From assembly GCF_000518865.1 (NCBI RefSeq), contig NZ_JAEK01000022.1:1-64000 (forward strand): a stretch of DNA of 64,000 bases, in the 5' to 3' direction. Every line of letters starts with the position of its first letter. Position 1 is the first letter of the stretch. The notes under the pieces are model-generated. The model was not told where the DNA came from. It made no database searches and saw only the letters and a program-made list of their open reading frames with translations. Positions 8,931 through 61,727 of the stretch are shown here, in pieces. The stretch is from Bacillus sp. J37. Its GTDB lineage: Bacteria > Bacillota > Bacilli > Bacillales > Bacillaceae. Position numbers and translations under genes: made by a program.

Positions 8931-10192
<1,262 letters not shown>

Positions 10193-25902: not shown

Positions 25903-26022
25903 AGAAAAGCACAGGCGCCTTGACCAGCCTAGGGCAAATAAGGTGATAAGGAATAGAAGGCGTTCTTTGCCTTCAATTCCAAATTGACTAGATCCTAGAG
26001 GGGCTAGGCGCTGGAGCTTGAC
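25903..26022 (+). repeat. Family-A dispersed repeat, copy 2
   Basis: GCACAGGCGCCTTGACCAGC to GGGGCTAGGCGCTGGAGC, with a central GAAGGCGTTCTTTGCCTTC hairpin and CCTAGGGCAAATAAG. It follows pepF directly. Confidence 0.85.
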
Positions 26023-26419: not shown

Positions 26420-26470
26420 TTGTCAAATGTCGACACATTTTGATATATTATAGATGTGAAATTAATCACA
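26420..26470 (+). promoter_or_regulatory. roxS promoter with Rex-type palindrome
   Basis: TTGTCA (26420-26425), 18-bp spacer, and an extended -10 TGATATATT (26441-26449). The palindrome TGTGAAATTAATCACA (26455-26470) covers the expected start. This matches a Rex site; in B. subtilis Rex represses and ResD activates RoxS. Confidence 0.75.
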
Positions 26471-26578
26471 AACAAACATTTACCCCTTTGTTTGACCGTG
26501 AAAAATTTCTCCCATCCCCTTTGTTGTCGTTAAGACATATAAAAGAGACCCTTTACTTTGGTATAGGGTCTTTTTATT
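26456..26578 (+). ncRNA. roxS: RoxS/RsaE small regulatory RNA
   Basis: A transcript unit of about 120 nt with its own promoter and a terminator (AAAGAGACCC / GGGTCTTTTT, 26541-26578). It contains the two C-rich seed regions known from RsaE/RoxS: ACCCCTTTGTTTGACCG (26482 on) and CTCCCATCCCCTTTGTTG (26509 on). RoxS pairs with mRNAs of central metabolism and redox balance. Location between a yizD-type gene and spxH matches B. subtilis. Confidence 0.92.
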
Positions 26579-38452: not shown

Positions 38453-38556
38453 AATCAACCGCTAGGGGAGCCCTATACAATGGGCTGAGATTAAAGTGAT
38501 TCTTTAAGACCCTTATAACCTGATCTGGTTCATACCAGCGTAGGGAAGTGGATTAC
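38453..38556 (+). promoter_or_regulatory. TPP riboswitch (THI-box)
   Basis: Classic sequence blocks: GCTAGGGGAGCC, GGGCTGAGA, ACCCTTATAACCTGATCTGG and TACCAGCGTAGGGAAGTGG. The following terminator hairpin at 38577-38611 indicates transcription control: TPP binding should stop expression of tenI-thiOSGFD. Confidence 0.96.
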
Positions 38557-38576
38557 AGCATGATATATAAATGTAT

Positions 38577-45568: not shown

Positions 45569-45602
45569 GTACTATCAGAAAGATATATATTTTATGATTG
45601 AT

Positions 45603-45662
45603 AGTATAAGAAAAACGAAGGCTTTCCCCATTAGGACTTGGAGACAAGCCAAGTTTTTTCTA
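45603..45662. repeat. Family-D hairpin repeat, copy 3
   Basis: AGTATAAGAAAAACGAAGG ... CTTGGAGACAAGCCAAG ... TTTTTTCTAA: same ends as copies 1 and 2, with a diverged interior. Confidence 0.55.
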
Positions 45663-45672
45663 AACGAGATCT

Positions 45673-58785: not shown

Positions 58786-59148
58786 TTCTTATCAAGAGAG
58801 GCAGAGGGACTGGCCCTATGAAGCCTCAGCAACCGGTTCATAACGAGTGAAGATCTGGTGATTGATATTTATTTTCTTAGAAACTACCTATGTTGGTTTT
58901 TAAAAGCACCGACAGATGATGAAAAATGAAGCGGACAAAGCGATTTTGTTTGTTCGAAGCATTTTTCATCATCTGTCGCAGGCTTGCAGAGCAAGCACTT
59001 GCTTGCTCTTAAGAACCCCACTTAAACATTAAGTAGGTTCTAAGTTCATAAGTAAATATTAAGTTAACACATTTACGAAAGATCTTTCACGAGTGCCAAG
59101 GTGCTAAATCCAGCAAGCCACACCAGCTTTATGCTTGAGAGATAAGAA
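58786..59148 (+). promoter_or_regulatory. SAM-I riboswitch (S-box) with a very large insertion in P3
   Basis: The 5' core (CTTATCAAGAGAGGCAGAGG, GACTGGCCCTATGAAGCC, TCAGCAACCGG) is at 58788-58836. The 3' core (AAGGTGCTAAATCCAGCAAG, then GCTTGAGAGATAAG) is at 59097-59146, and P1 closes as TTCTTATC with GATAAGAA. Between them, where P3 normally takes a few tens of bases, are about 260 bases. GTGAAGATCT (58847 on) pairs with AGATCTTTCAC (59080-59090). Inside are further perfect hairpins at 58910-58978 and 58988-59009 and one near 59012-59041. Controls metI-metC. Confidence 0.92.
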
Positions 59149-59167
59149 GAAGCGCACTCAAAACAAC

Positions 59168-59203
59168 ACAGTCTTCTTCTTAACGGGGAAGACTTTTTAT
59201 TTT
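59168..59203 (+). terminator. SAM-riboswitch-linked terminator
   Basis: AGTCTTC (59170-59176) / GAAGACT (59188-59194), then TTTTATTTT. GATAAGAAGAAG just upstream can compete for its left arm. Confidence 0.85.
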
Positions 59204-59248
59204 GCCTTAGAAGATATTAAAAAATCTTGTACTTTGATAGGTGCTTAG

Positions 59249-59372
59249 ACATCCAGCTCCAGCGCCTAGCCCCTCGAGGTCATAAGCCACAAATGAATTG
59301 AAGACAAAGAACGTTCTTCTATTCATTTGCGTCTTATGCTTGTCGGGGCTGACCAAGGCGCTTGCGCTTTTG
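59249..59372 (-). repeat. Family-A dispersed repeat, copy 4
   Basis: CATCCAGCTCCAGCGCCTAG to GACCAAGGCGCTTGCGC, with a central GAACGTTC. It sits inside the metI leader, between the riboswitch terminator and the metI ribosome site. Confidence 0.82.
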
Positions 59373-59428
59373 TTTAACGCTTTCTCTCATGTCCATAATC
59401 ATTAATTCAAACTTTAGGAGTGACAAAC

Positions 59429-60553
59429 ATGAGCAAACGAATTGAAACGAAATTAGCCCAAATTGGTAACAGAAGTGAAAATGTAACAGGTACTGTAAAC
59501 CCTCCAGTTTATTTTTCTACAGCATATCGTCATGCAGGGATTGGAGAATCGACAGGTTTTGATTATATACGTACAGGAAATCCTACTAGGTTACTCGTAG
59601 AGCAGGCAATTGCTGATTTAGAGCATGGTGATCGCGGATTTGCTTTCAGCTCGGGTATGGCTGCAATCCAAACGATCATGGCTTTATTTCAAAGTGGAGA
59701 TGAATTAATCGTCTCGTCTGATTTATATGGCGGAACCTATCGTTTGTTTGAAAGAGAGTGGAGAAAGTACGGACTATCTTTTCAATACGATGATTTCACA
59801 AATCCAGCGGAAACAGAAAAGTTAATAAATGAGAAAACAAAAGCTTTATTTATTGAAACACCAACAAATCCATTAATGCAGGAAACAGATATAAAAGAAT
59901 TAGCAGCAATTGCAAAAAAACATGATATTTTAGTGATTGTTGATAATACCTTTTATACTCCTGTGCTTCAAACGCCAATTTTAGATGGTGCTGATATTGT
60001 CATTCATAGTGCAACAAAATATTTAGGTGGACATAATGACGTACTAGCAGGTTTAGTTGTAACAAAAGGCCAGGAACTGAGTGATGAGTTTTTTCAGCAT
60101 CAAAATGCGATCGGAGCAGTGTTATCTCCATTCGATTCATGGTTATTAATGAGAGGGATGAAAACATTATCTCTTCGTATGAGACAGCATCAGCAAAATG
60201 CTCAGCAGGTTGCACAATTTTTAGAAGAGCATCCTGACGTACTTGATGTTCTTTATCCGGGAAAAGGTGGAATGCTTTCTTTCCGTTTGCAGGATGAAAC
60301 ATGGGTAAATCCATTTTTGAAAAACTTAAAAACTATTTCATTTGCTGAAAGCTTAGGCGGAATTGAAAGCTTTATCACATATCCGGCTACCCAAACTCAT
60401 ATGGACATACCTGAAGAAATTCGCATTGCAAATGGTGTCTGTAACAAGTTATTGCGCTTTTCAGTAGGTGTGGAACATGCGGAAGATATTATAGAAGATC
60501 TTACACAAGCATTTAAAGCAATGAAGGGAGCGGTAGCAATTGAGCAATCATAA
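59429..60553 (+). CDS. metI: MetI, cystathionine gamma-synthase / O-acetylhomoserine thiolyase
   Basis: A 374-residue Cys/Met-metabolism PLP enzyme. FDYIRTGNPTR near residue 44, GFAFSSGMAAIQ near 73 and the PLP lysine in HSATKYLGGHNDVLAGL near 197 are visible. It joins an activated homoserine with cysteine or sulfide. ATG 59429 follows AGGAGTGACAAAC. Overlaps metC by 14 bases. Behind the SAM riboswitch. Confidence 0.94.
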   Translation: MSKRIETKLAQIGNRSENVTGTVNPPVYFSTAYRHAGIGESTGFDYIRTGNPTRLLVEQAIADLEHGDRGFAFSSGMAAIQTIMALFQSGDELIVSSDLYGGTYRLFEREWRKYGLSFQYDDFTNPAETEKLINEKTKALFIETPTNPLMQETDIKELAAIAKKHDILVIVDNTFYTPVLQTPILDGADIVIHSATKYLGGHNDVLAGLVVTKGQELSDEFFQHQNAIGAVLSPFDSWLLMRGMKTLSLRMRQHQQNAQQVAQFLEEHPDVLDVLYPGKGGMLSFRLQDETWVNPFLKNLKTISFAESLGGIESFITYPATQTHMDIPEEIRIANGVCNKLLRFSVGVEHAEDIIEDLTQAFKAMKGAVAIEQS

Positions 60554-61727
60554 TTGGTCATTTCAAACAAAACTACTTCATAATGAATCAAAGGTGGACC
60601 ACAGCACAGGATCGGTAAGTGTGCCTATTCACCATTCTTCCACTTTTCATCAATTTAATGTTGATGAGTTTGGAAAGTATGATTATGCCCGTTCAGGAAA
60701 TCCGACCCGTGAAGCTTTGGAACAAGCTATCGCAGAATTAGAGGGTGGATCAAGAGGATTGGCATTTTCTTCAGGGATGGCTGCTATTTCAACAGCATTC
60801 TTACTATTATCTCAAGGTGACCATGTATTAGTAACCGAGGATGTATATGGCGGGACATTTCGGATTATTACAGACGTATTAACTCGTTTTGGCATTGAGC
60901 ATACATTTGTTGATATGACAGATCTTCATCAGGTTGCATCAAAAATCAGACCAAATACGAAGGTGATCTATATGGAAACACCTTCAAATCCATTGTTAAA
61001 GGTAACCGACATTCAAGGTATTGTGAATTTAGCAAAAGCAAATAATTGTTTAACCTTTTTAGATAATACGTTTTTAACTCCGGAGCTTCAAAGACCTTTG
61101 GAGCTTGGTGTGGATGTTGTGCTTCATAGTGCAACGAAGTTTTTAGCAGGTCATAGTGATGTGCTTGCAGGACTTGCGGTTGTAAAAGACCCTGAGCTTG
61201 GGGATCGCTTATATAGACTACAAAATGCATTTGGGGCAGTGCTTGGTGTACAGGATGCATGGTTAGTACTTAGAGGGTTAAAAACATTACATGTACGATT
61301 ACAGCAATCACAAGCTTCAGCATTAAAGATCGCTGAGTTTTTAGCTGATCATCCAAAGGTGGTTGAAGTATACTACCCTGGCTTAAGCTTTCATCCGGGA
61401 CATGATACACAGCGATATCAAGCAGACGGACCAGGAGCGGTTTTATCATTTAAACTAGCGGATGGAGATGCGGTAAGAACGTTGGTGGAGAATGTTGAGC
61501 TTCCTGTTTTCGCTGTAAGCTTAGGGGCGGTTGAATCGATTCTTTCCTATCCGGCAAAAATGTCACACGCAGCAATGCCGCCAGCTGAACGTGAAAAACG
61601 TGGGATTTCTGATGGATTGCTTCGATTAAGTGTAGGGTTAGAGAAAGTGGAAGACTTGATTAAAGATTTTGATGCAGCATTGGAAAAGCTTCCGGTTGTA
61701 AAGAAAAGTGAAAATGTGAATGTATAA
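60540..61727 (+). CDS. metC: MetC, cystathionine beta-lyase
   Basis: A 395-residue PLP enzyme of the same family: FGKYDYARSGNPTREALEQA, LAFSSGMAAIST and PLP lysine in HSATKFLAGHSDVLAGL near residue 195. It cleaves cystathionine to homocysteine. TTG start within the end of metI with AAGGGAG upstream, so translation is coupled. The order metI-metC matches B. subtilis yjcI-yjcJ. Confidence 0.93.
   Translation: MSNHNWSFQTKLLHNESKVDHSTGSVSVPIHHSSTFHQFNVDEFGKYDYARSGNPTREALEQAIAELEGGSRGLAFSSGMAAISTAFLLLSQGDHVLVTEDVYGGTFRIITDVLTRFGIEHTFVDMTDLHQVASKIRPNTKVIYMETPSNPLLKVTDIQGIVNLAKANNCLTFLDNTFLTPELQRPLELGVDVVLHSATKFLAGHSDVLAGLAVVKDPELGDRLYRLQNAFGAVLGVQDAWLVLRGLKTLHVRLQQSQASALKIAEFLADHPKVVEVYYPGLSFHPGHDTQRYQADGPGAVLSFKLADGDAVRTLVENVELPVFAVSLGAVESILSYPAKMSHAAMPPAEREKRGISDGLLRLSVGLEKVEDLIKDFDAALEKLPVVKKSENVNV

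Follow-up and report, generated by a model that had tools for sequence, protein, structure and literature searches.

The DNA analysed here, called the window throughout, is a stretch of 64,000 nucleotides from Bacillus sp. J37 (genome G000), an organism whose genus we infer to be Metabacillus. Two open reading frames follow each other on its forward strand: a metI-type gene at 59429-60553, coding for a methionine biosynthesis PLP-dependent protein (NCBIfam NF006095, 692 bits, cut-off 585), and metC at 60540-61727, coding for a cystathionine beta-lyase (NCBIfam NF005976, 713.6 bits, cut-off 627). Upstream of this pair and on the same strand, positions 58786-59148 are a SAM-I (S-box) riboswitch. 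The 5' part of its aptamer (58786-58837), delimited by the alignment to Rfam family RF00162 and by the P1 arms, comprises the 5' strand of P1 (58786-58793), P2 with the K-turn region and the start of P3 (CAACCGG). The 3' part (59094-59148), recognized from sequence, P1 arm and fold, contains the end of P3, the GGTGCTAAATCC core, P4 and the 3' strand of P1 (59141-59148). The arms of the antiterminator (59143-59182, inverted repeat I8), TAAGAAGAAG at 59143-59152 and CTTCTTCTTA at 59173-59182, pair at 10 of 10 positions, and a terminator scan places an intrinsic terminator at 59170-59204, made of a stem-loop (59170-59194) with a T tail. Between this terminator and the start of metI sits a copy (59253-59379) of a repeat family (CCAGCTCCAGCGCCTAGCCCCTCGAGG...) also found at 25903-26020 in the window, in genome G005 and at some other loci.

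The features expected of the SAM-I family are thus easily listed. The conserved core round a four-helix junction is there, and P1 overlaps an antiterminator, followed by a terminator, before a methionine gene. What the leader does not give is a single full-length RF00162 match of the usual length. The Rfam model, which the first-pass annotation had proposed to run, matches 58786-58925 at 53.4 bits (cut-off 44.4) with a near-perfect 5' half; the sole full-length alignment pushes the 3' half of the model into an insert and leaves the true 3' half unplaced. Both aptamer halves being present, and in order, we take this misplacement as a limit of the model. That annotation had seen S-box core sequences at both ends and a closed P1, and these hold: the 5' half is the one recognized by RF00162, the 3' core GGTGCTAAATCC and the P1 strand are readable by eye at 59100-59148, where they are the same as in a short natural form described below, and the arms of P1 pair at eight of eight positions. 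The possibility that the model would assign the two halves to separate RNAs did not materialize, no separate RNA being called. Folded as a whole, the 363-nt leader reaches -126.3 kcal/mol, against a mean of -81.5 (sd 5.3) for 100 shuffled sequences (z -8.4).

Among known RNA families, RF00162 is the only one near or above its cut-off, matches to miRNA and rliD families falling far below theirs. Elsewhere in the window, Rfam recognizes an ordinary T-box (9986-10191, -), an RsaE/RoxS small RNA (26456-26575, +) and a TPP riboswitch (38454-38563, +). With core, antiterminator and terminator all present, the leader most likely still functions as an S-box. Reasoning from what the family does, binding of SAM would close P1, the antiterminator would be blocked and transcription would end before metI.

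The insert in P3

The size of the insert can be read from a relative, genome G010, whose metI leader is a short natural form: it matches positions 1-52 and 309-361 of the query, with 12 nt of P3 in between, and its aptamer is a full-length RF00162 match at 89.3 bits. Taking this leader as the reference, the insert occupies about 58838-59093, some 256 nt. A large insertion within P3 had been correctly noticed at first pass, with a size, about 230 nt, that was somewhat too small. The segment 58851-59089, folded alone, is far more stable than expected (z -9.4, none of 200 shuffled sequences as good).

Within the insert lies a module (58895-59017) made of an outer stem, a long hairpin A and a second hairpin. 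It scores 118.2 bits with R1, a covariance model of the module whose training set includes this very sequence. Folds and alignment place the 5' arm of the outer stem, GGTTTTTAAAAGCAC, at 58895-58909 and its 3' arm at about 59003-59017. Hairpin A (58910-58978, inverted repeat I1) has a 3x3 internal loop and a 9-nt apical loop; it is supported by the fold and by covariation of helix 2 in an alignment, A1, of the modules of relatives. The individual pairings listed at first pass, which were read by a model from sequence, are for the most part borne out: CGACAGATGATGAAAAATG has its exact complement at 58960-58978, within a 30-nt inverted repeat, while the extension of P3 by GTGAAGATCT / AGATCTTTCAC (58847-58856 / 59080-59090) and the pairing of CTTAGAA..CCTA with TAGGTTCTAAG are both seen in the predicted fold. 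The AGAGCAAGC hairpin is also present at 58988-59009 (inverted repeat I7), as a shortened form, since alignment A1 shows that relatives mostly have two hairpins, B and C, in its place. Because these are replaced by one hairpin, the junction of the window copy is three-way, against the four-way junction predicted for most relatives. In lower P3, the motif ACGAGTG is found on both strands (58843-58849 and 59089-59095) and sets two GA steps opposite each other, possibly as tandem G-A pairs; many metI and yitJ leaders across the genus retain it.

Long P3 arms in Metabacillus

The metI leader is not alone. Genome G000 has ten SAM-I matches (RF00162). Seven of them score 78-96 bits over 91-145 nt, and three are weak and split (metI 53, yitJ 48 and metK 35 bits) and precede metI, a gene for a YitJ-type bifunctional homocysteine methyltransferase/MTHF reductase, and metK. 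Across the genus, P3 was measured in 54 leaders (metI of G018 and metK of G010 left out), starting at the A of CAACC and running to AAGGTG. It is 28-294 nt long in the 19 metI leaders, 16 of them within 219-294 nt, 43-373 nt in the 15 yitJ leaders and 55-254 nt in the 20 metK leaders. In 11 genomes of other genera, the 137 SAM-I matches all reach at least 61 bits, with spans of 95-221 nt, so that no split match of the window kind is seen among them. Two of the long-armed leaders fall below the Rfam cut-off of 44.4 bits, the metK leader of G000 itself (L013/L076, 35.0 bits) and the yitJ leader of G017 (L067, 43.0 bits). Automatic annotation would miss both, and riboswitches of this type are probably under-annotated.

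In folds and alignments, the complete inserts share one architecture: an outer stem, rich in T and about 14 bp long, closes a four-way junction from which emerge hairpin A, with an internal loop between 19 bp and a further 8 bp or so, and the short hairpins B and C. Alignment A1 contains 20 modules from metI and yitJ, drawn from 14 long metI and 11 long yitJ leaders; those left out (metI of G006, yitJ of G006, G020, G018 and G008) are partial, nested or divergent, and yitJ of G003 is also outside it. In A1, 96.9% of the cells of the proposed helices are paired, against 40-50% in slid controls, and 17 of 50 pairs have changed on both sides (mean of shuffles 10.6; none of 500 as high). Alignment A2 contains six of the seven long metK modules, with G013 left out and G005, the hairpin A of which is shortened, under the length limit. 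There, 93.2% of cells are paired, and both partners have changed in six of 57 pairs, a count reached by 2 of 500 shuffles. Pair types are no more numerous in metK than in shuffles (170 of 500 as high), which makes the evidence from covariation thinner for this gene. A tRNA-like fold was also considered, and ARAGORN found none in seven loci.

How far does the module extend beyond these genes? R1 matched 19 of the 21 genomes of the genus, in 59 rows that all fall, by their coordinates, on metI (16), yitJ (12) and metK (6) leaders or are opposite-strand echoes of these (25); the metK copies were matched though they lie outside the training set. In G000 itself, its matches are confined to the three SAM-I leaders. 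In the wider family, none of 59 further genomes gave a match, and among 397 genomes of the order only the window genome and one other (1 of 396) did so, within searches that, for R1 and the reverse model R2 described below alike, score no more than a fraction of the first-look candidates (150 in each genome of the genus, 41 in those of the family and 8 in those of the order). These absences are to be read with some latitude, R1 having missed in its genome search the dispersed copies of G010 discussed below, which it scores at 43-53 bits when applied to them directly. The lone match outside the genus (L161, G157:C1:67577-67636), in another family, is weak (E 4.5e-4) and covers hairpin A only. 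A pattern scan of genome contigs returned Metabacillus and Bacillus sp. records, plus six records outside that look like chance.

The module changes slowly. Its distance is below that of four-fold sites in 21 of 24 species pairs of metI, yitJ and metK, pairs that share branches, are thus not independent, and involve module-keeping leaders only. For metI, the module differs at 0.02-0.17 of sites against 0.09-0.59 for the four-fold sites of the gene, and is lower in all ten pairs; relative to the module, the remainder of the metI P3 evolves more quickly in eight of these pairs and more slowly in the two closest ones. The module stays below four-fold sites in seven of eight yitJ pairs and four of six metK pairs. 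The three exceptions, in yitJ and metK, are close pairs where both rates are equal, and in more distant pairs the proportion of differing sites is 0.09-0.19 in the module against 0.32-0.66 for four-fold sites.

Such restraint invites the idea that the P3 module has been exapted as a second regulatory domain, with a protein, an RNase (RNase III acting on hairpin A, for example) or another ligand tuning the three leaders together. One architecture in three functionally linked leaders, its strong covariation, its slow change and the positions of the apical part of hairpin A that are invariant across metI and yitJ would all fit. However, the apical sequence differs in metK, and several species lack hairpin A or the whole module while keeping gene and switch: G013, G020, G019 and G010 for metI, G016 for metK, and G009, G013, G014 and G019 for yitJ. 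In the MetI tree, G010 sits on a long branch and many forks are weak, so that we draw no order of gains and losses. All in all, we find this explanation unlikely.

A dispersed element of the same fold

A search with the motif of hairpin C led to another type of locus. The GCAAGC/GCTTGC hairpin is not a genus-wide repeat, with 0-4 sites in each of 20 genomes and 12 in G010. In the latter it marks a dispersed element, the common part of which is about 144 nt long and sharp-edged. G010, which lacks the module in its own metI leader, carries 13 full and six partial dispersed copies, as counted with the reverse model R2. These copies (L172-L183, L232-L241) are mostly intergenic; in nine of them that were aligned the outer flanks differ and are unrelated, and in nine of ten loci no open frame of at least 90 amino acids runs across the copy.

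The element folds as the same four-way junction, with an outer stem, a long A, a short B and a short C in that order, from which the window copy differs in having B and C fused. Arm sizes are alike, at about 14 bp for the outer stem, about 25 for A, 6-9 for B and up to 11 for C, and the T-rich base of the outer stem and the GCAAGC/GCTTGC hairpin C are common to the P3 modules and the element. R1, trained on riboswitch modules only, gives full-length matches to nine of 12 G010 loci at 43-53 bits, the remaining three being truncated copies (10-21 bits). Conversely, R2 matches eight of the 38 leader loci, each time precisely at the module, and misses the other 30, all ten metK loci among them; in the other 20 genomes of the genus it finds no copies, so that dispersed copies are seen in one genome of 21. 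The element of G010 has no match in plasmids or phages, and the window insert none in plasmids.

Sequence likeness was judged against a null in which all helices and the composition of their strands are preserved, using four of 13 metI, three of seven yitJ, three of six metK and four of nine dispersed sequences. The metI and yitJ modules are homologous (z 11-13, none of 200 null scores as high). The metI modules resemble the dispersed copies at z 3.3-3.5 (0-1 of 200 as high), yitJ at 1.8-2.9 and metK at 1.4-2.2 (up to 17 of 200 as high in these last two), while metK against yitJ gives 1.1-2.0. The weakness of the likeness of metK and yitJ to the dispersed copies, and of metK to yitJ, leaves room for convergence to one architecture.

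Could the P3 module, then, have grown in place by inverted duplications, unconnected with any mobile element? Likeness of sequence beyond architecture is modest and clearest for metI alone, and no dispersed copy appears in G000 by sequence search, model search or structural scan. A DNA search with the insert returns only metI, yitJ and the palindrome of the insert itself; within the limited sensitivity of these searches, the insert does not recur identically at unrelated intergenic sites of its genome as a plain repeat, an outcome against which the first-pass annotation had warned. A scan for four-way junctions recovered none of six P3 control modules in its first version and 14 of 32 in its second, which missed the window copy. 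It gave two hits in 464 kb of G000 (none in one shuffle), which on sequence and fold we judge to be an ordinary terminator-like hairpin and noise, and in its second version none in a further 400 kb (864 kb in total). R1 on the same 864 kb returns the window module alone below E 0.001, the next-best match (L217, 23.9 bits, E 0.0015) covering part of hairpin A only. Against independent growth stand the same order and sizes of arms, the shared T-rich stem base and hairpin C, and the reciprocal matches of R1 and R2, and we hold it to be unlikely.

Proposed capture, constraint and known systems

Our preferred explanation, to which we give a probability of about 0.55, is that a dispersed four-way-junction repeat was captured by P3 and has been kept in SAM-I leaders under structural constraint. 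Inserts of the same type in up to three switches, together with the scattered look-alikes of G010, suggest that the P3 insert is probably a mobile RNA-folding element settled in a gene switch. P3 can demonstrably receive such visitors: in the yitJ leader of G006 (Metabacillus niabensis), about 89 extra nucleotides inside hairpin A are a copy of a different dispersed repeat, found in 13 of 21 genomes of the genus; G000, G005 and G006 each yield at least 40 matches to it. Copies of this repeat, which folds strongly and is about 90 nt long, lie in the window at 45586-45663 (-) and at positions 370-458 of locus L106.

We can imagine what followed capture. During transcription the insert would fold independently above P3 and at a distance from the SAM pocket. 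On this reading the metI and yitJ modules go back to a common source, which would have passed from leader to leader through copying or recombination; the metK module has the same architecture in a mostly different sequence. An insert in P3 would presumably be tolerated only if it folds fast and does not mispair with the switch, a limit that would place the helices under selection while letting arms be lost or nested. A random mobile element is not expected to persist in three SAM-I leaders only, so that targeting or selection would be needed.

The first-pass annotation had set two alternatives against each other, a mobile hairpin element tolerated in P3 or a second structured domain, and the evidence favours a mix of both. 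The former gains from the same-fold element dispersed in one relative and from the foreign repeat in M. niabensis yitJ. The latter gains from a module present in three leaders, covarying, and mostly slower than synonymous sites. What does not stand is mere tolerance, these same properties indicating more than a fresh, passively accepted insertion. To go one step further, the mobile element might have been domesticated as the second domain of three SAM switches, with a trans-acting factor, protein or RNase, reading the P3 module and coordinating metI, yitJ and metK; this we regard as rather improbable. Still less probable is neutral clutter, in which P3 is the most permissive site, hairpins come and go and covariation partly reflects repair of one arm from the other at the DNA level: P3 lengths of 28-373 nt among 54 leaders, repeated loss of arms, the nested repeat of G006 and the variable riboswitch insertions already published (PMC2258182) would suit it, but the slow change of the module at larger distances and the lack of a comparable split match among the 137 SAM-I matches of 11 other-genus genomes do not.

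Capture of a dispersed repeat under structural constraint, if correct, has a broader interest. From a P3 of 28 nt to one of 373 nt with a nested repeat, the leaders form a natural series of how a well-understood aptamer absorbs foreign structured RNA, and they let one ask whether such capture creates new regulation. There is also a practical gap, in that the Rfam SAM model misplaces long-armed leaders or misses them.

How does all this compare with known systems? With SAM-I / S-box riboswitches (RF00162), the window leader shares the core, P1, P2, the base of P3, P4, antiterminator and terminator, and the place before methionine genes. It differs in that P3 alone mostly measures 219-294 nt in the metI leaders of the genus, against 95-221 nt for whole aptamers in other genera, and in that the family model splits or misses the long-P3 members. 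In the portions of the open-access literature that our search covered, we came across no SAM-I leaders described as having a conserved multi-branch module in P3. 'Variable insertions' in riboswitches are described as nonconserved stem-loops at sites that spare the aptamer core (Barrick and Breaker, 2007, PMC2258182); here, by contrast, a conserved multi-branch module occupies three paralogous leaders of a genus and resembles a dispersed repeat in its fold. Another parallel is the BOX element that lies between two T-box riboswitches in the pneumococcal trp operon, the leader of which apparently still works (PMC3049150). This, too, is a dispersed structured repeat in a riboswitch leader, but its place is between aptamers, whereas the P3 element is found within an arm of the aptamer itself, in many species and in three leaders. 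Finally, the element of G010 resembles MITE/REP-like repeats in being short, non-coding, strongly folding, dispersed and mostly intergenic, and differs from them in being a four-way junction, not a single hairpin.
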